Of a stretch of 64,000 nt of DNA, positions 13,018-50,872 are shown piece by piece (the first letter of the stretch is position 1; the number at the start of each line of letters is the position of its first letter). Origin of the DNA: Actinoplanes xinjiangensis (GTDB taxonomy: Bacteria > Actinomycetota > Actinomycetes > Mycobacteriales > Micromonosporaceae); contig NZ_QGGR01000007.1 in the NCBI RefSeq assembly GCF_003148685.1, forward strand, positions 1 through 64,000, in the 5' to 3' direction. The translations under genes and the position numbers were made by a program. The notes below the pieces were generated by a model that saw only the letters and a list, made by a program, of their open reading frames with translations, searched no databases and had not been told where the DNA came from.

Positions 13018-13040
13018 ATGTCGGTGGGCTCGCGTAAGCT
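13018..13040 (+). promoter_or_regulatory. PafBC-type (RecA-NDp) DNA-damage promoter 1
   Basis: ATGTCGGTG, eight bases, then TAAGCT. This fits the actinobacterial RecA-NDp motif (TTGTCRGTG, 8 bases, TANNNT), used by the WYL regulator PafBC for LexA-independent DNA-damage induction. The same segment, 28 bases with a single mismatch, recurs at 17740-17767. It lies just before the tRNA-like RNA and the LRR gene. Match by eye to the known consensus; regulation is inferred. Confidence 0.65.
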
Positions 13041-13045
13041 CCGGC

Positions 13046-13127
13046 GCGGCGAGGTCGTAGCGCAGAGGTCGTCGCGCCTTGGCATCGAGCAGGAGGACGC
13101 CGGTTCGAATCCGGCCGGTCTCGCCGC
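13046..13127 (+). ncRNA. tRNA-like RNA with atypical anticodon arm
   Basis: Bases 13051-13123 fold as a tRNA except for the anticodon arm. The acceptor is GAGGTCG (13051-13057) with CGGTCTC (13116-13122), including two G-U pairs; it can extend outward to 12 pairs. U8-A9 are present, the D-arm is GCGC, loop AGAGGTCGTC with the conserved GG, GCGC, and the T-arm is GCCGG, TTCGAAT, CCGGC, which is canonical. The 21 bases between D and T arms (13078-13098) are two short of normal and do not form a 5-pair stem with a 7-base loop; a small hairpin CTTG/CGAG is possible. It begins about 10 bases after the promoter at 13018, so it would sit at the transcript's 5' end. It may be a specialised or decayed tRNA. 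Confidence 0.55.
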
Positions 13128-13158
13128 CCTACTTCGCGAGCCCGGGGGAGGCGGCGAC

Positions 13159-14253
13159 ATGCAGGTGCGGTGCCCGGCCATCACCGACCCGGACCGTGGG
13201 CTGGCCGACCCGGCCGACTTCGACGGCATCCTCGGCCGGCTCGCCACACCCGGCCCGGTCACCGCCACCGAGGAGTTCGCGCGGGGCCTGCTGCGCCCCG
13301 ACGGCCGCGTCGACCTGTGCAAACAGGGCCTCGGCCCGGTCCAGGCAGCCCGGGTCGTCGAGGTCGCGGCCGGCTCACCACACGCCACTCATCTGCTGCT
13401 CGGCACCAACGGCCTCGGCACCGAGGGGGCCCGCGCGGTTGCCGGCGCCCTGCCACCCGGGCACCGCATCAGCACCGTCTACCTGGGATGCAACCGGATC
13501 GACGCGGCCGGCGCCGGGGCGCTCGCCGACCGGCTGGCCGGCGACGACGCCGTCCGGGCACTCTGGCTCAAGCGCAATCCGATCGGGAACGAGGGAGTGG
13601 CCCGGCTGGCGTCCGCGCTGCCGGGCAACCGTGCTCTGCGTACCCTCGATCTGGTCAACACCGGCCTCACCGCCGCCGGCCTGGAACCGCTCGCCGACGC
13701 CCTCGCCGCCCGCCCGGCCGGGCTGGAGCGTCTCTTCCTCGGCGGCAACGGCCTGCGGCCGGACGCCGTCCCGGTCCTCGCCCGGCTCGTCCGCGAGGGC
13801 GGGGTCCGCGAGCTCTACCTGGCCGTCAACCACCTGGGCGACACCGGCCTCGCGGCCCTCGCCGACCACCTCGGGGGGTATGCGATGACCCTCGGCCTGG
13901 GCGGCAACGGCATCACCGACGTCACCCCGCTGGCCGCGAACCTCCACGAGTGGACCGCTCTCGACCTGTCCCGCCCGCCCTCCGAGCGGGCCCTCGGCGG
14001 CCGGCCCAACCTGCTCGGCGACACCGGGGCCGCCCTGCTCGCCGACGCCCTGCCGGGCAGTGCGCTGCGCCGCCTCGACGTGCGGTTCACCGGCATCGGC
14101 GGGCGTGGCGCCAAGCTGCTGCTCGCGGCCGGGGCCGGCCTCGAGCACCTGGGCATCAACGGCGGCGTGCCCCGCCGCATGCGGCGACTCGCCCCGCGAT
14201 CGGCGGCCGCGCCCCACGAGGACATCACGGCCATCGTGAGCGTGTACCGGTGA
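13159..14253 (+). CDS. Leucine-rich repeat protein (ribonuclease-inhibitor type)
   Basis: 364 residues from ATG 13159, which has GGGGGAGG ahead of it. After a ~75-residue N-terminal part there are about eight RI-type leucine-rich repeats of roughly 28 residues: LLLGTNGLGTEGARAVAGAL, VYLGCNRIDAAGAGALADRL, LWLKRNPIGNEGVARLASAL, LDLVNTGLTAAGLEPLADAL, LFLGGNGLRPDAVPVLARL, LYLAVNHLGDTGLAALADHL and later weaker copies. Such repeats make a curved protein-binding surface. There is no signal peptide, so it is cytosolic. Its stop overlaps the first ankyrin gene. In this cluster it looks like a recognition or adaptor subunit for the MoxR-VWA pair; this is inference. Confidence 0.85.
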   Translation: MQVRCPAITDPDRGLADPADFDGILGRLATPGPVTATEEFARGLLRPDGRVDLCKQGLGPVQAARVVEVAAGSPHATHLLLGTNGLGTEGARAVAGALPPGHRISTVYLGCNRIDAAGAGALADRLAGDDAVRALWLKRNPIGNEGVARLASALPGNRALRTLDLVNTGLTAAGLEPLADALAARPAGLERLFLGGNGLRPDAVPVLARLVREGGVRELYLAVNHLGDTGLAALADHLGGYAMTLGLGGNGITDVTPLAANLHEWTALDLSRPPSERALGGRPNLLGDTGAALLADALPGSALRRLDVRFTGIGGRGAKLLLAAGAGLEHLGINGGVPRRMRRLAPRSAAAPHEDITAIVSVYR

Positions 14254-15824
14254 GGCGTTCCCTGTTCCTGTCCGACTGGCGGCAGATCCGCAGGTACGCG
14301 GTGCCGGCCCGGATGATCGCCGAGTGCACCGCGGCACGCGGGCGCGGCGACTGGCGGGCCGCCTGCGCGGCCGCCCGCATCGACGTCGACATCGACCCCG
14401 CTCTGGCCGCCGAGGCTCCGCTCGCGCACCTCGCACCCGACCTGCTGCGCTGGCACCTGCCGCGGGCCCTGCACGGCTCCACCGGATTCGCCGCCGGGCA
14501 CCTCTACCTGCTGATCCCCGACGAGCCGGTCCGGCCGGACACGGTGCTGCTCACCGTGCGGTCACCCGACACCCCGGAGGGACGGCAGCGGCTCCGGCTC
14601 GGCGCCGTGCGGGGAGCGGCCGGGCTGCACGACGGCCGGGCGGCGCCGGTTCCGGCGTACCTCTGGGATGTCCGGCACGCCGCCGGGCTGCGCACCGCGC
14701 TCGGCGGCTCACCGCAGCGCCTGCCGCTGCTCACCCCGGCCGGGGAGCCCCGGCCGGAGGACGCCCTCGGCGCCGGTGACGACCTGCCGGCCCGCGCCGA
14801 ACGGGTGTGGCGGGCGCCCCGGCGGCGGCAGGCGTTCGTCGAGGCCGGCTTCCAGCCGGCCGCCGGGCAGGACCAGCAGTGGTCGACCGCCGACCACAGC
14901 TGGCCGCTGGAGCCGCTCGACCCGCTGCGGCTCGCCCACGACGTCCGCTGGCTGGTGGCCCGCCTCGGCGAGCCGGCCTGGACGCTGCTCGGCAACTCCT
15001 ACCGGCAATGCGAGGTGACCATGGACGGCGACGCGATGCGGGTCTCCTGGACCACCGGATCCGACCGGACCGCGAGCACCCGGATCGACCTGGTCCGGTA
15101 TTGCGCCGACCTCGAACTGATCCGGCAGGGCCGGCTCGCACCGGGCGCCCTGCACCCGCTCGTGCGCGACGTTCTCTTCCCCGGGGCTCCGGCGGCCCCG
15201 TTCGTGCCCACCGACGGCGAGCTGGTCCGGGTCCGCTGCGGTGGCGTCTGGCACGAGATCGAGGCACGGCTCGGGCGGCTCGATCCACTCGCGCACACCG
15301 TCGACGAACGGCTGCGGGAACGCGCGGTGCGCGCCTTCGGCGGACCGGTCACCGGCTGTTTCGCGGTCGAGCATCTGTGGTACGGCGCGCTCGGCCGGCT
15401 ACCACGTCGGCTGCGCGCCTACCGGGCCGACCTGTGGCAGCACCTGTTCCACGGCGGTACCCGTACCCTGCTCGAACTCCTCGACACCGGTCTCGACCCG
15501 CAGCTGCGCGACGGCGCCGGCGGCACCCTCATCCACCGGATCGCGGCGTTCGACCACCGGGAGCTGCTGCCCCGCCTGCTCGCCGCCGGCATCGACATCG
15601 ACACCGCCGACAAGGAGGGCAACACCGCCCTGCACCGCATCGTCCTCCAGCACGGGCCGGCCGACGTGATCACCACCCTGCTCGACGCCGGTGCCGACCC
15701 CCGGATCCGCAACCGCAACGGTGAGACGGTGCTCGACTACGCGAAGAAGACGCTGAGGTATAGCAGCCGCCTGCGCCCCGACTTCCAGGAGGCGCTGGAG
15801 CAGCTGCGCAAACAGGCGCGGTGA
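14250..15824 (+). CDS. Ankyrin-repeat protein, paralogue 1
   Basis: 524 residues from GTG 14250, overlapping the LRR stop. The N-terminal ~380 residues are an unrecognised domain, shared with the next gene, beginning WRQIRRYAVPARMIAECTAARGRGDWRAA and containing HLAPDLLRWHLPRAL, AYLWDVRHAAGLRTALGGS and VRCGGVWHEIEARLGRLD. The C-terminal ~130 residues contain about three ankyrin repeats: TRTLLELLDTGLDPQLRDGAGGTLIHRIAAF, ELLPRLLAAGIDIDTADKEGNTALHRIVLQH and DVITTLLDAGADPRIRNRNGETVLDYAKK. Cytosolic. Ankyrin repeats bind proteins; the shared N-terminal domain probably holds the specific activity, but I see no catalytic motif. Confidence 0.85.
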   Translation: MRRSLFLSDWRQIRRYAVPARMIAECTAARGRGDWRAACAAARIDVDIDPALAAEAPLAHLAPDLLRWHLPRALHGSTGFAAGHLYLLIPDEPVRPDTVLLTVRSPDTPEGRQRLRLGAVRGAAGLHDGRAAPVPAYLWDVRHAAGLRTALGGSPQRLPLLTPAGEPRPEDALGAGDDLPARAERVWRAPRRRQAFVEAGFQPAAGQDQQWSTADHSWPLEPLDPLRLAHDVRWLVARLGEPAWTLLGNSYRQCEVTMDGDAMRVSWTTGSDRTASTRIDLVRYCADLELIRQGRLAPGALHPLVRDVLFPGAPAAPFVPTDGELVRVRCGGVWHEIEARLGRLDPLAHTVDERLRERAVRAFGGPVTGCFAVEHLWYGALGRLPRRLRAYRADLWQHLFHGGTRTLLELLDTGLDPQLRDGAGGTLIHRIAAFDHRELLPRLLAAGIDIDTADKEGNTALHRIVLQHGPADVITTLLDAGADPRIRNRNGETVLDYAKKTLRYSSRLRPDFQEALEQLRKQAR

Positions 15825-15828
15825 CGGA

Positions 15829-15843
15829 CGGTTCGCGTATGCT
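15829..15843 (+). promoter_or_regulatory. Weak promoter resembling the cluster's damage promoters
   Basis: GGTTCGCG then TATGCT (15838-15843), followed by CCGGT, resembles the downstream half of the promoters at 13018 and 17743. The upstream TGTCGGTG element is absent or badly degenerate. It lies 25 bases before the second ankyrin gene. It may be a constitutive -10 or a decayed copy. Confidence 0.3.
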
Positions 15844-15867
15844 CCGGTCGGTTCGGAAGGGGTTGTG

Positions 15868-17706
15868 GTGAGCGGTCACGATCCACTCGCGCTCGCCGAG
15901 TGGCAGCGCATCCGCCGCTATGCCGTACCGCAGCGGATGATCACCGAATGTGCCGCGGCCCGGCAGCGCGGTGACCAGCGGGCCGCCTGGACGGCCGGCC
16001 GGATCGACGTGACCGACGCCTTCGCGGAACTGACCACCCACCTCGCGCCCGACCTGCTGCGCTGGCACCTGCCGCGGGCCCTCGGCGGGTACACCACGCT
16101 CGCCGTCGACCAGCGCTACGTACTCGTCCCGGCCGGCGCGGTGATCGACCCGGAAACCGAGGTGCCCGTCCTGGACGCGCTCTCGTCGATGTTCGGTTCC
16201 CAGCGGCTCAGCCTCGGCACCGCCCGCTGGGGAGAGCTGAACCCGGCAGAGGTGTCACTGCTGCCCGCCCACCTGTGGGACGCCCGCCACGCCGATGAGC
16301 TGCGGACCGCGATCGGTGGCTCCGCCGAGCGGGCGCCCGGGTTCACCGCCGACGGTGTCCCGCTGCCGGCTGAGGCGCTCGGGCGCGGGAACGACCCGGC
16401 GTCGCGGGCCGAGCGGGTGCGCCTCGCGCCCACCCTCTCCGCAGCGTTCGCCGAAGCCGGGTTCGTCATCGGTGACGAACCCGGGGTGCCCTGGCCCGGC
16501 TATCCGGACGAGACGACCATGCGGTCCGTCGACCCGACACGGCTGGCCGATCACGTACGGCGGTTCGCCCGGCAGTTCGGCATGAACACCTGGATGCTCT
16601 GGCTCGGCTATCCCGCGTACCTGCGATGCGACGTGGACGGCGACACCGTGCGGGTCACGCCGCAGACCGCCGGCGGCCATCGCTACTCGGCTACGCGGGG
16701 CCTACCCCGCCTCCTGCCGGACCTGGTCCGCTATCAGGTCGACCTCGACCTGATCCGGGCCGGCCGGATCACCCCGGCTGAGGTGCATCCGATCGTCCGT
16801 GCCGCGTTGTTCCCCGGCGTTCCCGGGTCGGCGGTCGTTCCGGCTCCCGTGACCGGTCTGGCATCGGCGGTGGATCGGGCTTCCGTGGCTGGCCCGGCGT
16901 CGGCGGTGGTTCGGGATTCCGCGGCCGGTCTGGCGTCGGCGGTCGTTCCGGCTTCCGTGGCTGGTCCGGCGTCCGCGGTGGTCGGGGATTCCGTGGTTGG
17001 TGGTTCGGTGCCGTCGGGGGTCTGGGGTTCCGTGGCCGCCGGTTCGGTCTCGGCCGGCGCTTCGGATCTCGTCGCCGAACCGGTGCCGGTGGTCGTTGTC
17101 GGGGCCGTCCGGGTCCGGTGCCGCGGCGAATGGCACGAGATCGGAGTCCGGCTCGGGCGGCTCGACCTGGTAACGCACACCGACACCGAGCGGCAGCGCG
17201 AACGTGCGCTCAGCGCCTTCGGCGGCACCGTCAGCGGATGCTTCGCCGCCGAGCAGGCGTGGCACGGCGCACCCGGCCGCCTACCCCGTCGGCTCCGCGC
17301 ACACCGCGAGGACCTGTGGCAGCTCATGATCCACGGCGGTACCCGGACCGTGCTCGAACTCCTCGACGCCGGCATGGACCCGCACCTGCGTGACAGCCGG
17401 GGACGGACGCTGATGCACCGGATCCGCTCCTTCGACCATTCCCGTCTGCTACCGCGCCTGCTCGCCGAGGGCCTCGACATCAACGCCCGCGACAAGGAGG
17501 GCAGCACACCGCTCTACCTCGCCGTGGTCCACCAGTGGCCGGCCGGCCTGATCATCGCCCTGACCGAAGCCGGCGCCGACCCACACCTGCCCAACCAGGA
17601 CGACATGTCGGTGATCGACCACTGCGACGAGATCCTCAACTACCACGAAGACCTCGACCCCGACTTCGAGGCCGCCGTGGCTCACCTGCGGAAACGCTCA
17701 GCCTGA
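15868..17706 (+). CDS. Ankyrin-repeat protein, paralogue 2, with 12-residue repeat insertion
   Basis: 612 residues from GTG 15868; this start is preferred over GTG 15865 because GGAAGGGG is then five bases away. It is a paralogue of the preceding protein along its whole length: WQRIRRYAVPQRMITECAAARQRGDQRAA, HLAPDLLRWHLPRALGG, AHLWDARHADELRTAIGGS, VRCRGEWHEIGVRLGRLD, and three C-terminal ankyrin repeats (TRTVLELLDAGMDPHLRDSRGRTLMHRI and following). It differs by an insertion at about residues 320-410 made of five 12-residue units rich in Ser, Ala and Val, lying between the N-terminal domain and the conserved HEIGVRLGR segment. The insertion is probably a flexible linker grown by slippage. Function unknown. 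Confidence 0.85.
   Translation: MSGHDPLALAEWQRIRRYAVPQRMITECAAARQRGDQRAAWTAGRIDVTDAFAELTTHLAPDLLRWHLPRALGGYTTLAVDQRYVLVPAGAVIDPETEVPVLDALSSMFGSQRLSLGTARWGELNPAEVSLLPAHLWDARHADELRTAIGGSAERAPGFTADGVPLPAEALGRGNDPASRAERVRLAPTLSAAFAEAGFVIGDEPGVPWPGYPDETTMRSVDPTRLADHVRRFARQFGMNTWMLWLGYPAYLRCDVDGDTVRVTPQTAGGHRYSATRGLPRLLPDLVRYQVDLDLIRAGRITPAEVHPIVRAALFPGVPGSAVVPAPVTGLASAVDRASVAGPASAVVRDSAAGLASAVVPASVAGPASAVVGDSVVGGSVPSGVWGSVAAGSVSAGASDLVAEPVPVVVVGAVRVRCRGEWHEIGVRLGRLDLVTHTDTERQRERALSAFGGTVSGCFAAEQAWHGAPGRLPRRLRAHREDLWQLMIHGGTRTVLELLDAGMDPHLRDSRGRTLMHRIRSFDHSRLLPRLLAEGLDINARDKEGSTPLYLAVVHQWPAGLIIALTEAGADPHLPNQDDMSVIDHCDEILNYHEDLDPDFEAAVAHLRKRSA
16828..17007 (+). repeat. In-frame 36-base tandem repeat inside ankyrin paralogue 2
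   Basis: Five consecutive 36-base units, each encoding a 12-residue block of the form SAVVxxSxAGxA. Unit boundaries are near 16828, 16864, 16900, 16936 and 16972; the last is diverged. The first ankyrin paralogue lacks the repeat, so it arose after the duplication, probably by replication slippage. Confidence 0.8.
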
Positions 17707-17742
17707 GCCGGTCCACCGCCCGGCGCGAAATCGTGGCCGGAA

Positions 17743-17765
17743 ATGTCGGTGGGCTCGCGTATGCT
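17743..17765 (+). promoter_or_regulatory. PafBC-type (RecA-NDp) DNA-damage promoter 2
   Basis: ATGTCGGTG, eight bases (GGCTCGCG), then TATGCT. It fits the RecA-NDp consensus and is identical to the motif at 13018 except for one base in the -10 (A to T). It lies about 300 bases before the MoxR gene, ahead of the 31-base repeat array, so the array would be in the 5' leader. Confidence 0.65.
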
Positions 17766-17820
17766 CCCGGCCACCGCCTACCTCCGGGGATCTTGTCGAT
17801 GTTCTTTCCAGAGAGAGTGC

Positions 17821-18068
17821 ATGACCGCCGGGCTCGTTCCTGGGAGTCTGCAGGATCGCCGGGCTCCTTCCTGGGAGTCCGCATGCCTGGCGGGCTGATT
17901 CCTGGGAGTCCGCATGCCTGCGGGGCTCAATCCCGGGAGTCCGCAGGACCGCTGCGCTTGTTCCAGGGGCCGTGTGACCGGCCGCGTTCATTTCAGGAGA
18001 CGTGCGTGACTGCCGGGCTCATTTCAGGGGAGAGCACATGACCGCCGGAATCGACCCAGGGAGTGTGC
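17821..18068 (+). repeat. Array of eight 31-base units each carrying an RBS and start codon
   Basis: Eight degenerate units of 29-32 bases (starts near 17821, 17852, 17883, 17914, 17945, 17974, 18006, 18038) lead directly into the MoxR start at 18069. The typical unit is ATGACCGCCGGGCT..., then TTCCTGGGAGT or similar, so each repeats the gene's own initiation region: a start codon followed by codons for Thr-Ala-Gly-Leu, and a GGGAG/AGGAG ribosome site for the next unit. Because 31 is not a multiple of three, successive starts fall in different frames. The last ones form short ORFs with stops overlapping the next start, such as GTG 18006, whose TGA overlaps ATG 18038. Not a CRISPR: there are no spacers. 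Confidence 0.85.
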
Positions 18069-19247
18069 ATGACCGCCGGGCTTGAGGCCGCCGACGTTCT
18101 GCTGCGCCGGATCCGGGTCACCCGGACCGAGCCGGTCACCGACCACCGGGCCGCCGCCCTGTCGCTGTGCGTAGCCGCCAACCTGCCGGTGCTGCTCTGG
18201 GGCGAACCGGGCATCGGCAAATCGGCGACCCTGGCACAGCTCGCCGACGGTCTCGGCCTGCCGTTGGAGACGGTGATCGCCAGCGTGCACGAGCCGTCCG
18301 ACTTCGCCGGCCTGCCCATCGTCGGCGACGACCCGGCCGTCCAGGGCGTCCCGATGGCCCCACCCGACTGGGCGGTCCGGCTCGCCCGACACGGCCGTGG
18401 CCTGCTCTTCTTCGACGAGCTGTCGTCCGCACCGCCCGCCGTGCAGGCCGCCCTGCTCCGCGTCGTCCTGGAGCGCCGGGTCGGTAGCCTCACCCTCCCC
18501 GACGAGGTCCGGATCGTCGCCGCCGCCAACCCGCCGTCCTCCGCCGCCGACGGTTGGCACCTGAGCCCACCCCTGGCCAACCGTTTCGTCCACCTGCACT
18601 GGATCCACGACCCGCGCGTCGTCGCCCGCGGCCTGGCCGGGGTGTGGCCGCGTATCGACGTGCCGACCGTCGACCCGGACCGGGCCGCCGGCGCGCTCGC
18701 CCGGGCCCGTGGCGTGATCGCCGGCTTCCTCACCGCCCGGCCCGGCCTCACCCACCACCTGCCCACCGACGCCGAGGCCCGCGGGGGAGCCTGGCCGTCC
18801 CCGCGCACCTGGGACATGGCGTTGCGCCTGCTCGTCTTCCACTTCTGCGCCGGCACCAGCCGGGAGGCACTGGCCACCGCCGTCATCGGCGCCGTCGGCG
18901 ACGGCGCCGGCCTGGAACTCACCACCTACCTCGACGAGGTCGACCTGCCCGATCCCGAGCGCGTCCTCGCCAACCCGGCGGCCTTCGCCCTTCCCGATCG
19001 CGGCGACCGTCAGCTGGCGTTCCTCACCGCGGTGATCGCCGCCATCGAAGCGCGGGTGACGCGCGAACGCTGGGAAGCCGGCTGGACGGTCCTGGCCAAG
19101 GCCGTCGACGCCGGTGTTCCCGACGTGGCCGCCCGGGCAGCCTTCGACCTGGCCCGCATGCGCGACCCGTCCTGGCCGGTCCCGGCGTCGATCGACGCGT
19201 TCCTCGAGGTGCTCACCGCTTCCGGATTGCTGACCGGTGGCTCCTGA
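18069..19247 (+). CDS. MoxR-type AAA+ ATPase
   Basis: 392 residues. Walker A is GEPGIGKSA near residue 45, Walker B is LLFFDEL near residue 118, and the sensor region reads VRIVAAANPPSSAADG. The central segment HEPSDFAGLPIV with VPMAPPDWAVRL is typical of MoxR/RavA relatives. These ATPases act as chaperones or remodelling motors with von Willebrand factor A partner proteins, the partner here being the next gene, which overlaps it by 11 bases. Start ATG 18069 was chosen over the GTG at 18063 because CAGGGAG is then 6 bases ahead and the start matches the repeat unit. Expression is likely driven by the damage-type promoter at 17743 through the 31-base initiation array. Confidence 0.9.
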   Translation: MTAGLEAADVLLRRIRVTRTEPVTDHRAAALSLCVAANLPVLLWGEPGIGKSATLAQLADGLGLPLETVIASVHEPSDFAGLPIVGDDPAVQGVPMAPPDWAVRLARHGRGLLFFDELSSAPPAVQAALLRVVLERRVGSLTLPDEVRIVAAANPPSSAADGWHLSPPLANRFVHLHWIHDPRVVARGLAGVWPRIDVPTVDPDRAAGALARARGVIAGFLTARPGLTHHLPTDAEARGGAWPSPRTWDMALRLLVFHFCAGTSREALATAVIGAVGDGAGLELTTYLDEVDLPDPERVLANPAAFALPDRGDRQLAFLTAVIAAIEARVTRERWEAGWTVLAKAVDAGVPDVAARAAFDLARMRDPSWPVPASIDAFLEVLTASGLLTGGS

Positions 19248-20895
19248 CCCGCCCCCACCCATCCCGGCCGACTCCGGCCCGGGGGCCCGGCCACACCCGG
19301 TACCGCCTCGACGTGATTCCCCTGACGGGCCGACCGTCCCGCTGTCTTCCGCCGCCCCGGACGGCCCGGGTGGCCCGGCCGCGGTGGCCTCCCCGGGCAG
19401 CCCGCCGGAGCCGGCGACAGCTCGAGGTGCGTCCCAGGTGGGGCCCGTGCCGCCGCTTCAGCGGGCTTCTTCCCAAGTGGGGCCGGTGGTGCCGTCTCGG
19501 CCGGCTTCTTTACCGGTGGAGCCGGTCGTGCCGTCCCAACGAGCCTCTTCGCCGAGGGTGCCGGTCGTGCCGTCTCGGCGGGCTTCTGTACCGGTGGTGC
19601 CGTCTCCGCAGGATTCTGCCCCGGTGGAGCTGGATTCGCCGTCGCTTGAACGGGCTTCGTCCCGGGTGGAGCCTGGAGTACCGGCTGAGGCCCGGGCCGA
19701 GCGGCCGGCCGACGCCGGCCGGGTTCTGGACCGGACGAAACTGCTGGCCGCGCGTCTGAAAGCGGCCGGCTCCCAGCCCTACCTGGCGTCCGCCCTCTAC
19801 AGCCTGACCGTGGTGCCCAGTTACGGAGTGCCGAGCATGGGCGTTGACCGGCACTGGCGCTGCTACGTGAATCCGGCGTTCGTCGATGCCACACCGGTGT
19901 TCGAGCTGGCCGCGGTCTGGGTGCACGAGGTCGCTCACCTGCTGCGCGACCATCACGGCCGGGCCGGCCTGCTGGCGCCGGAGCTGCGCCACGATCACCA
20001 TCGGATCAACATCGCGCAGGACTGCGAGATCAACGACGACATCTCGGCACTGCCGTCGAACGCGTTGCGCCCGAGCATGTTCGATCTGCCGGACGGGCGG
20101 ATGTTCGAGCAGTACCTGCCGGGTATCCCACCGTCCCGGCACCAGCCGGAGTGCGGTTCGGGGGCGCACGGCCACCGGATGCCGTGGGAGGTGTCCGACG
20201 CGGCCCGGGTCAGCCCGGTCGAGGCGGCGGCGATCCGGCGCCAGACCGCCAACGAGATGCGTGCCCACGCCAAGGCCCGGGGACGGATCCCGGCCGGTTG
20301 GCGCCGCTGGGCCGACGAGATCCTGGAACCCACCGTCGACTGGCGACGGGCTCTCACCGGTGCTGTCCGGGAGGCCGCGTCCTGGGCTTCCGGGGCGGTC
20401 GACTACACCTATCAGCGTCCGTCACGGCGCGGGTCGGCCGTACCCCGTGTGGTCTTTCCGAGCCTGCGCCGCCCGATGCCGAGGGTGGCCGTCGTCGTCG
20501 ACACGTCCGGTTCGATGGGTGACGGCGAGTTGCGCGCTGTTCTCGGTGAGGTCGCGGGCGTGCTGCGTACCGTTGGCATCGGCCGTAATCGGGTCACCGT
20601 CCTGTCCTGTGACGCCGACGTCCACGCCGTGCGCCGTGCGAACACGGTCGGTGACGTGGTCCTGGAGGGTGGCGGCGGCACCGACATGCGGGTCGGCATC
20701 GAGCAGGCGATGCGTACGCAGGAGCGCCCGCACATCATCATCGTCCTGACCGACGGTTACACCCCGTGGCCGGAGTCCCGTCCCGGCAACGTTCGCGTGA
20801 TCGCAGGCGTGGTCGGCGAAGGCGCCGACCCCCCACCGTCCTGGATAGAGACCGTCACCATCCCCCTCGACCAGGTGTCCGCCGGCCAGCATTAG
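19237..20895 (+). CDS. DUF2201-type metallopeptidase-VWA protein, partner of MoxR
   Basis: 552 residues. Residues 1-170 are a low-complexity Pro/Ser/Val/Arg region with imperfect repeats (PVVPSxxAS). From about residue 175 there is a putative metallopeptidase domain with HEVAHLLRDHH, the HExxH zinc motif, and AQDCEINDDISALP downstream, which supplies acidic ligands in this family. The C-terminal ~140 residues are a VWA-like domain with the MIDAS motif DTSGSMG, a Thr in GGGGTDMRVG and an Asp in VLTDGYTPWP. MoxR plus VWA pairs work as ATP-driven remodelling or metal-chelation machines. The zinc motif suggests substrate cleavage after recruitment by the LRR or ankyrin proteins; this is inference. 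Confidence 0.88.
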   Translation: MAPDPPPPIPADSGPGARPHPVPPRRDSPDGPTVPLSSAAPDGPGGPAAVASPGSPPEPATARGASQVGPVPPLQRASSQVGPVVPSRPASLPVEPVVPSQRASSPRVPVVPSRRASVPVVPSPQDSAPVELDSPSLERASSRVEPGVPAEARAERPADAGRVLDRTKLLAARLKAAGSQPYLASALYSLTVVPSYGVPSMGVDRHWRCYVNPAFVDATPVFELAAVWVHEVAHLLRDHHGRAGLLAPELRHDHHRINIAQDCEINDDISALPSNALRPSMFDLPDGRMFEQYLPGIPPSRHQPECGSGAHGHRMPWEVSDAARVSPVEAAAIRRQTANEMRAHAKARGRIPAGWRRWADEILEPTVDWRRALTGAVREAASWASGAVDYTYQRPSRRGSAVPRVVFPSLRRPMPRVAVVVDTSGSMGDGELRAVLGEVAGVLRTVGIGRNRVTVLSCDADVHAVRRANTVGDVVLEGGGGTDMRVGIEQAMRTQERPHIIIVLTDGYTPWPESRPGNVRVIAGVVGEGADPPPSWIETVTIPLDQVSAGQH

Positions 20896-20946
20896 GGCGG
20901 CTCGCCCCCTTTCCGGCACATGCCGACGGCCGCCGATCCAGCTCGG

Positions 20947-21190
20947 CTGGTCCTCACCGTCCTCTCAACGGCCTTGAGACAGCGGTGGGGTCCAGCCGGC
21001 AGGGTTCGGCTGGTTGTCACCGTTGTCTCGGTGGCCTTGAGGCAGCGGTGGGGTCCAGCTGGGAGGGTTCGGCTGGTTGTCACCGTTGTCTCGGTGGCCT
21101 TGAGGCAGCGGTGGGGTCCAGCCGGGAGGATGCGGCTGGCTGTCACCGTTGTCTCGGCGGCCTTGAGGCAGCGGTGGGGTCCAGCCGGGG
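20947..21190 (+). repeat. 63-base tandem repeat array after the VWA gene
   Basis: About 3.9 copies of a 63-base unit: a partial 25-base copy from 20947, then units at 20972, 21035 and 21098, and a partial copy from 21161. Copies 2 and 3 are almost identical, so expansion is recent. As 63 is divisible by three, several frames stay open across it, but none shows believable protein sequence or a ribosome site. The array begins ~50 bases after the VWA stop. Confidence 0.85.
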
Positions 21191-49888: not shown

Positions 49889-50872
49889 ATGCGTGCGGAC
49901 CGGCTCGTCGCCACCCTCCTGTTCATGCAGACCCGTGGGCGGGTGACCGCCGCCGAGGTCGCCGCCGAACTGGAGGTGTCGGTCGCGACCGCCCGTCGCG
50001 ATCTGGAGGCGCTGTCCACGGCCGGGGTGCCGGTCTATCCCCAGCCCGGCCGGCACGGCGGATGGTCGCTGGTCGGCGGCGCACGGACCGATCTCAGTGG
50101 GCTGTCAGCGGCCGAGGCGCGGGCGTTGTTCCTGCTGGCCGGCCCGACCGCGGTGTCCGCCGAGGCGAAGGCGGCGCTGCGCAAACTGCTGCAGGCGCTG
50201 CCCGCTCCGTTCCGGACCGAGGCGGAGGCCGCCGCCGGGGCGACCCTCGTCGACCCGGCCGGCTGGGGGGAACGGGCGAAGCAGCCACCCGAGGTGGTGG
50301 GCCTGCTCCAGGAGGCGGTGGTGCGCCGCCACCGGATCCGGTTCACCTACCGGAGCCCCGGCCGCGGAGACCGGGGTGCGGCCGGGGCGACCGGCGGGGA
50401 TGACGAGCGGGTGGCGGACCCGTGGGGCGTGGTCGACAAGGGGGACGTGTACTACCTGGTCGCGGGCACGGCGAAGGGCCGGCGGACCTTCCGGGTGGAC
50501 CGGATGTCGGCGGTGACGGCGACCGGGGAGACGTTCGGGCGCCCGGCTGACTTCGACCTGGACACGGCCTGGGGCCAGGTGGTCGGCGAGGTCGAGGGGA
50601 TGCGCTCCCGGACCTGGGCGACACTGCTGATCGCCGACCGTTTCGTCTGGGTGCTGCGCGACCACTTCGGCCGGCACTGCGAGGTGCTGGAGACCCTCGC
50701 CGACGGCCGGGCCCGGGTGCGGGTGGGCGCTCCGGAGGCCCGGGACATCGCCCGTACCCTCTCGGGCTGGGGTGCCGCCGTGGAGGTCCTCGACCCGCCG
50801 TCGGTCCGTGCCGAACTCGGTCGCATCGGCGCCGAACTGGTCCACCTCTACCCGGCTGCGCCGCCGGCCTGA
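49889..50872 (+). CDS. HTH-WYL domain transcriptional regulator
   Basis: 327 residues from ATG 49889. The N-terminal winged helix is MRADRLVATLLFMQTRGRVTAAEVAAELEVSVATARRDLEALSTAGVPVYPQPGRHGGWSL. The WYL-like middle part has IRFTYRSPG, VADPWGVVDKGDVYYLVAGTAKGRRTFRVDRM, where the family's W-Y-L signature appears as DPWG...YYLVA. The C-terminal WCX-like domain is short. It belongs to the DeoR/YafY-like group, not to PafB/PafC, whose HTH-WYL genes are tandem. Likely controls the divergent VOC gene through the dyad at 49847. Confidence 0.9.
   Translation: MRADRLVATLLFMQTRGRVTAAEVAAELEVSVATARRDLEALSTAGVPVYPQPGRHGGWSLVGGARTDLSGLSAAEARALFLLAGPTAVSAEAKAALRKLLQALPAPFRTEAEAAAGATLVDPAGWGERAKQPPEVVGLLQEAVVRRHRIRFTYRSPGRGDRGAAGATGGDDERVADPWGVVDKGDVYYLVAGTAKGRRTFRVDRMSAVTATGETFGRPADFDLDTAWGQVVGEVEGMRSRTWATLLIADRFVWVLRDHFGRHCEVLETLADGRARVRVGAPEARDIARTLSGWGAAVEVLDPPSVRAELGRIGAELVHLYPAAPPA

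Follow-up and report, generated by a model that had tools for sequence, protein, structure and literature searches.

The closest described relative of the locus considered here is a gene of Streptomyces SPC6 that was reported as tRNA-Asp-AUC and traced in 32 streptomycetes, with a gala LRR gene, a PE-PGRS gene, a MoxR-like gene and a hypothetical gene on its 3' side, and for which an integrative-element origin was suggested (Chen et al. 2022, PMC9262613). A cluster of comparable make-up lies in a 64,000-nt stretch of Actinoplanes xinjiangensis DNA (contig NZ_QGGR01000007.1, positions 1 to 64,000; hereafter the window), where a tRNA-like RNA (TRL) precedes genes for an LRR protein, two ankyrin proteins (ANK1 and ANK2), a MoxR-type ATPase and a DUF2201 protein with a HExxH metallopeptidase domain and a VWA-like domain. 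Judged from its description and not by sequence comparison, the SPC6 cluster appears to be a homologue of this one. An earlier reading of the window from its letters alone (the sequence-only reading) had held that no published description of the arrangement existed, which the SPC6 work contradicts; beyond Chen et al. 2022, no description of the RNA family or of the protein set was found in the titles and abstract starts of the open-access papers that searches listed. In the account of Chen et al. the RNA is a decoding tRNA limited to 32 streptomycetes, whereas here it belongs to a wide TRL family, and parts of that paper name no extended acceptor, metallopeptidase-VWA domain or damage promoter, all of which were found here.

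The protein half of the cluster resembles the MoxR-vWA ternary systems, which have the same order of third component, MoxR and vWA and include multicellular actinobacteria among their hosts (PMC7159879; PMC8195603); the vWA-MoxR pairs have been proposed to remodel protein complexes (PMC7159879). The cluster likewise has a MoxR protein and an adjacent vWA protein, both with intact motifs, and upstream of MoxR it has a conserved third component, usually an ankyrin protein, whose N-terminal domain takes that place. No aromatic motifs of VMAP type precede the AAA+ domain of MoxR (the 41 residues before the AAA+ match contain no W), and the vWA domain has no effector C-terminal to it: the ternary-system vWA proteins carry C-terminal effectors, whereas in the 552-residue DUF2201 protein the protease domain lies N-terminal to a VWA domain at residues 417-542. 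Unlike the ternary systems, the cluster also includes an RNA of its own, and its third component has no Pfam family. Group 2.2 jumbo phages, like the cluster, pair MoxR with a vWA protein whose N-terminal domain is a metallopeptidase, but a virion-assembly role is proposed for that pair and parts of the account mention no RNA, LRR or ankyrin partner (PMC7824862).

The RNA half has a parallel in Salmonella, where DNA damage leads to tRNA cleavage and to induction of rsr-yrlBA-rtcBA, a damage-linked operon that, like the cluster, contains a tRNA-like noncoding RNA; its authors suggest that the tRNA-like part may competitively inhibit an anticodon nuclease (Hughes et al. 2020, PMC7790460). Cleavage of anticodon loops is also known from VapC toxins (PMC13273310). 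The Salmonella operon differs in encoding a Ro60-type protein and RtcB/RtcA under RtcR control, of which the window proteins scanned match only RtcR, weakly and in the AAA domain. A TROVE-domain protein, as expected in the operon of a Ro60/Y-RNA particle, was not matched among the window proteins scanned with Pfam. Band-7 proteins are reportedly encoded with a tRNA-like RNA in RNA-repair systems described by Burroughs and Aravind in 2016, and would share with the cluster the pairing of such an RNA with a scaffold protein; unlike those systems, the cluster proteins scanned gave no Band-7 or ligase match.

A family of tRNA-like RNAs with an extended acceptor

The RNA was treated as an accessory in the sequence-only reading, but is probably the most informative part of the cluster. 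It is called by both ARAGORN and Rfam (13051-13125 and 13051-13123, respectively; 39.5 bits), as had been anticipated, and its score is the third lowest among the 85 tRNA-family matches of the genome; that it belongs to a multi-copy family had not been seen. In 41 aligned TRLs, found by patterns in the D and T arms and hence favouring these elements, the two arms are nearly constant, with invariant GG and GGTTCGA columns, and the elements of the tRNA elbow (G18G19 and TTCNANT) are present. The acceptor and anticodon helices of the same 41 sequences covary, with 17 of 25 pairs changed on both sides (acceptor 11/12, anticodon stem 5/5) and a covariation score of 0.395, versus 0.166 when shuffled and at most 0.142 with slid partners; all five measures were matched in 0 of 500 shuffles.

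The window copy has an acceptor helix of 12 bp and therefore lacks the 7-bp acceptor with unpaired discriminator that is a trait of decoding tRNAs. Across 215 TRLs (those without full flanks or with identical sequence being left out), acceptor pairs 8, 9 and 10 were formed in 82, 82 and 80% and pairs 11 and 12 in 58 and 62%, against 31, 22 and 54% for pairs 8-10 in 78 genuine tRNAs, most of them from this genome. A TANNNT box occurs most often 22 nt before GTAGC (71 of the 191 TRLs with a box) and lies at 20-25 nt in 182 of the 191. This near-fixed -10 offset suggests that transcription would start at the 5' end of the TRL, at or beside the first base of the extended helix (about 13047 in the window).

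A total of 231 distinct TRL sequences was gathered from Actinoplanes, Micromonospora, Streptomyces, Actinomadura, Lentzea and others. The D-arm pattern, with up to three mismatches, matched 24 of 67 same-genus genomes (reversed control: four genomes, one match each), and in each of five further genomes of the genus the orthologous cluster has one to three TRLs. At least 119 stretches were matched in a scan of named genomes, and the 80 loci listed include Actinoplanes, Streptomyces, Lentzea, Saccharothrix, Actinomadura, Nocardiopsis, Micromonospora, Dactylosporangium, Rhodococcus and other genera. A covariance model (R1) built from the 41 TRLs gave 84.8-99.8 bits to 40 training members (the remaining one overlaps another and is absent from the list) and at most 46.5 to other matches, ordinary tRNA genes included. 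At E <= 1e-12 it matched 37 of 150 Streptomyces genomes; genuine tRNAs are probably among the matches near E 5e-10 (93 of 200 genomes at 1e-9), which are not counted as TRLs. In a phylum-wide sample R1 matched 2 of 296 genomes, namely this one and one Streptomyces, both already known, and an earlier whole-core pattern matched 7 of 394 genomes of the class, all of one genus, and missed this genome. These sparse matches indicate that the family is concentrated in certain groups. The TRL-bearing regions discussed below are a subset of the matches, hand-picked for spread.

This genome has a second TRL (G000:C36:84077-84158; locus L097) with a Cys-like (GCA) loop, beside which no adjoining LRR, ankyrin or SDR-family (F60) gene was found. 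Orphan TRLs of five genomes (L097, L099, L101, L102 and L105) sit among shared gene families (F4, F11, F24, F25, F26 and F53-F55), each present in some of the loci. An apparent tRNA array elsewhere in the genome (G000:C19:35397-38565) comprises 19 tRNA-family matches within 3.2 kb, many of them low-scoring.

The anticodon arm

The anticodon arms of TRLs span 15 to 31 nt across the family. A perfect anticodon stem with a 7-nt loop is present in 122 of the 231 distinct TRLs, and 92 of these have U33, with the triplets CCA (38), GCA (10), CUC (9), GCU (8), CAU (5) and others. The arm of the window TRL forms three of five pairs, its inner stem is open, and its loop, GCAUCGA, has no U33. By the standard of a decoding tRNA (5-bp stem, 7-nt loop and U33) the window TRL thus falls short, and some other TRLs do not. 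Among the 22 TRLs that lead an LRR gene, 20 have a non-canonical arm and 13, the window copy included, have exactly GCAUCGA with an open inner stem; the window TRL was counted in this class, the automatic gene call having begun the LRR gene inside it. The exact 17-nt anticodon arm of genuine tRNA-Trp occurs in eight TRLs.

Genes accompanying the RNA

Forty Micromonosporaceae regions were chosen by TRL match and not by their proteins, and 20 Streptomyces regions were added, giving 60. A TRL was taken to precede a gene when this was the next same-strand gene within 450 nt, using our own gene caller; the SDR profile was made from two sequences and may include unrelated SDRs. In the Micromonosporaceae regions the next gene belonged to the ANK family after 28 TRLs, to SDR after 18 and to LRR after seven, or 53 of 69 TRLs, these families accounting for 82 of the 709 genes there. 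Among the matches listed in the named scan, the three families follow 29 of 77 TRLs, with 21 TRLs near locus ends left out, and TRLs stand before ANK, SDR or LRR genes in 8-kb loci of Actinomadura, Herbidospora, Planotetraspora, Acrocarpospora and Nocardiopsis.

TRL, MoxR and DUF2201 genes occur together in 21 of the 60 TRL-picked regions. Complete clusters were seen in Micromonosporaceae and Streptomyces only, and the order TRL-LRR-ANK-MoxR-DUF2201 is found in 5 of the 20 Streptomyces regions. The sequence-only reading had proposed a single system and had named a gene order confined to close relatives among the grounds that would refute it; the complete clusters in these two groups show that the order is kept beyond them. 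The gene before MoxR in the 21 complete clusters is ANK in 18 and LRR in L276 and L279, and L286 differs. In 24 genomes of the genus searched both ways, TRLs were present in 6/6 with a MoxR orthologue versus 3/18 without (p = 6e-4).

Promoters

The published consensus of the mycobacterial recA P1 promoter, a target of PafBC, is tTGTCRgtg-8 nt-TannnT (quoted in PMC5656591). The sequence-only reading had placed two near-identical PafBC-type promoters before the two halves of the cluster, and both fit this consensus exactly. The exact pattern has 10 sites in the 10.8-Mb genome, two of them in the cluster (reversed control: one); of the other eight, six have a downstream gene that could be scanned (own gene caller), these being a DinG-family helicase gene, xseA, ispE, an HSP90-family gene, an STM4015-family gene and one without a family. 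In locus L032 a third promoter is followed by an apparent TRL remnant.

In relatives, a PafBC -35 element was scored as at least 6 of 8 letters at N8 from TANNNT. By this measure it precedes 28 of 215 TRLs (shuffled control 3/192), all of them protein-linked (28/107): 8/22 LRR-leading TRLs, the window copy included, 12/51 ANK-leading, 8/34 SDR-leading and 0/108 others. No Streptomyces locus is among the 28. Some 9 kb from a Pup ligase gene of this genome lie two adjacent WYL matches that are plausible candidates for PafBC itself; in the stretches beside two of the three Pup-ligase matches the open reading frames scanned are not PafBC, the WYL pair lying further along. Another WYL-domain match falls within the window, at 50291-50518.

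Proteins and layout of the cluster

Walker A and B are present in 29/29 MoxR copies, HExxH in 29/30 copies of the DUF2201 protein and MIDAS-type motifs in 30/30; the MoxR-VWA pair that the sequence-only reading had described thus has intact motifs. The model of ANK1 has a mean AlphaFold pLDDT of 91.5, and that of the ANK N-terminal domain one of 90.5. In the window this domain matches no Pfam family, and across 39 members two families gave one weak match each. No PDB fold match was obtained at E <= 0.001; a profile search of PDB sequences gave three matches up to E 1, the best at 0.054. Residues 201-273 of ANK1 show a weak structural likeness to toxins of the RelE/YoeB/YafQ type: the best structural alignment of the N-terminal domain is with a toxin-antitoxin chain, 8yxv_E (Z 4.7, root-mean-square deviation 3.2, 68 residues), followed by RelE, YafQ and YoeB chains. 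This modelled likeness may serve as a lead only.

The features of the cluster are collected in Table 1. The identities given to the LRR, MoxR and DUF2201 metallopeptidase/VWA proteins in the sequence-only reading were confirmed by Pfam, and its ankyrin protein is present, although as two paralogues and not one. The overlap it described between MoxR and DUF2201 exists as called, but hinges on the start chosen for the repeat-rich N-terminus of the DUF2201 protein, whose orthologues in the genus give matches beginning at residue 155-164, with one at 94. Likewise, the second promoter is present, but about 300 bp separate it from the MoxR gene that it was said to lead, and a 31-bp tandem repeat fills most of this distance. 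The units of that repeat look like the MoxR ribosome-binding site and ATG, as if a translation start had been multiplied. Further tandem repeats lie at 16823-16996 (ANK2, 36 bp), at 19461-19602 (N-terminus of the DUF2201 protein, 39 bp) and, behind the cluster, at 20943-21189 (63 bp).

Table 1. Features of the cluster, with positions in the window
Feature	Position	Strand	Evidence and remarks
PafBC-type promoter 1	13019..13040	+	TGTCGGTG-N8-TAAGCT; exact consensus; same element before TRLs of relatives
tRNA-like RNA (TRL), 12-bp acceptor helix	13046..13127	+	R1 covariance match 95.7 bits (training-set member), covariation, -10 offset
LRR protein, 364 aa	13159..14253	+	Pfam LRR_6; four genus orthologues 77-86%
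ANK1, GTG start 14244 or 14250	14244..15824	+	Pfam Ank; conserved N-terminal domain and ankyrin repeats
ANK2, ANK1 paralogue	15865..17706	+	46-59% identity to ANK1 in aligned pieces; internal 36-bp tandem repeat
PafBC-type promoter 2	17744..17765	+	TGTCGGTG-N8-TATGCT; not followed by a TRL in this genome
31-bp tandem repeat, 8.5 copies	17819..18082	+	Unit resembles MoxR start region
MoxR-type AAA+ ATPase	18069..19247	+	Pfam AAA_5; Walker A and B
DUF2201 protein	19237..20895	+	Pfam DUF2201_N, DUF2201; HExxH metallopeptidase domain and VWA-like domain; conserved core from about 19700

Interpretation

The cluster is tentatively regarded as a chromosomal stress-response system around a dedicated tRNA mimic, a trans-acting bait or cofactor of a MoxR-vWA system, a view held with somewhat less than even confidence. 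The anatomy of the TRLs, which is read directly from their sequences, together with the published parallels (vWA-MoxR remodelling, the Salmonella operon and VapC), leads us to infer the bait or cofactor role. Further points in its favour are the covariation and long acceptor, the ANK, SDR and LRR genes that follow most Micromonosporaceae TRLs, the co-occurrence of TRLs with the MoxR orthologue, the restriction of PafBC -35 elements to protein-linked TRLs and the eight exact tRNA-Trp arms. In the proposed mechanism the TRL would act in trans, held by the LRR and ankyrin-N proteins, and would signal that tRNAs are under attack, for instance from anticodon nucleases set free when DNA is damaged or a phage attacks. 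Cleavage or capture of the TRL may then lead MoxR, together with the VWA domain, to remodel the complex, by which the HExxH protease would be freed or loaded. The sequence-only reading had suggested a machine induced by DNA damage in which the LRR and ankyrin proteins might choose substrates for unfolding or cleavage. Orphan TRLs with tRNA-Trp-like and Cys-like loops could be decoys or further sensors. A wider proposal, that TRLs are a new bacterial noncoding RNA class of stress-linked mimics used as baits, in which a constant body with an exchangeable anticodon arm couples tRNA attack to a MoxR-driven protease switch as an RNA-decoy "guard", is possible but more doubtful.

Several observations weigh against the bait or cofactor interpretation. 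GC-rich strands pair easily, and mismatched strands of different TRLs form pairs 8-12 in 49, 64, 59, 42 and 48%. Single-sequence folding of the window TRL is no better than that of shuffles (z -0.24), so that the structural claim rests on covariation. The window loop equals none of the genuine tRNA loops compared, and distinct TRL loops equal genuine ones in 6/58 versus a column-shuffle mean of 4.3; general copying of tRNA loops is therefore not shown, the idea that TRLs are loop-for-loop copies of many tRNAs is unsupported beyond Trp, and loop mimicry appears strong for Trp only. More distant MoxR-DUF2201 pairs have no TRL in the 19 kb around them, which suggests that the protein core predates the RNA link or extends beyond it; in four such pairs (L040-L043) the protein before MoxR matches the N-terminal part of the ANK profile. 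The core proteins match no PADLOC 2023 system, apart from weak matches to ankyrin repeats or AAA domains, and viral contigs do not contain the exact TRL pattern. The eight protein-linked Streptomyces TRLs examined score 2 or 3 of 8 for the PafBC -35 element (six of them have a TATGAT -10 box), which does not support a general occurrence of damage-type promoters and rules out PafBC control as a universal feature; damage-type control thus appears to characterise this branch and a few others rather than the TRL family in its entirety. Finally, decoding of GAU, seen with a reporter, and constitutive expression have been reported for tRNA-Asp-AUC (PMC9262613).

The improvement of the GAU reporter by the gene, its expression in small-RNA sequencing and the unmodified A34 (PMC9262613), with the purine 32, C33 and AUC that the window TRL shares with tRNA-Asp-AUC, would fit a real decoding tRNA for GAU codons whose neighbours are left over from an integrative element, the origin put forward by Chen et al. 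However, the acceptor helix exceeds 7 bp, the window copy lacks U33 and has an open inner anticodon stem, arm length varies across the family as described, and the main text of PMC9262613 is without the terms aminoacyl, charged, synthetase and acceptor. Many genomes of two families, moreover, keep the same gene order after the RNA, and a mobile-element origin was not supported by the plasmid, viral-contig and phage comparisons made, in which integrase genes were not searched for: among plasmids nothing matches the LRR protein at E <= 1e-20, and MoxR matches in 156 phage records are all below 60% identity. A decoding tRNA with element remains is accordingly considered improbable. Taken over the whole family, the sequence data speak against ordinary decoding, but they leave the reporter result published for one of its members unrefuted.

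An unlikely alternative, too, is that the TRL is a cis-acting mRNA leader, processed by RNase P/Z or cut by a tRNA nuclease, which sets the stability or translation of the next gene: protein-linked genes mostly start about 20-180 nt past the T arm and the -10 offset would make the TRL the very 5' end, but 108 of 215 TRLs do not precede any of the three families within 450 nt, tandem TRLs occur, and some Streptomyces copies lie in unrelated neighbourhoods. TRLs far from ANK, SDR and LRR genes and TRLs in tandem favour a role in trans. Such a role could also be that of a passive decoy, or sponge, mechanistically unrelated to the MoxR-DUF2201 machine, as the Trp-, Cys-, Glu- and Ser-like triplets, the orphan position of many canonical-loop TRLs and the eight exact tRNA-Trp arms might suggest. 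Two observations speak against a sponge only, which is considered rather improbable: in different genera TRLs are tightly linked with the same three families of proteins, and most LRR-leading TRLs keep a non-tRNA-like loop.

Significance

If the bait or cofactor interpretation is true, the published "new tRNA" would be one member of a broad tRNA-mimic family, and MoxR-vWA systems would gain an RNA component. Annotation of TRL genes as tRNA-Trp, -Cys, -Ala or -Asp, the labels that ARAGORN gives them, would need correction. Through its variable anticodon arm, each mimic would be predicted to report or absorb a particular tRNA-cutting enzyme, and experiments could then address tRNA surveillance in antibiotic-producing actinobacteria directly.

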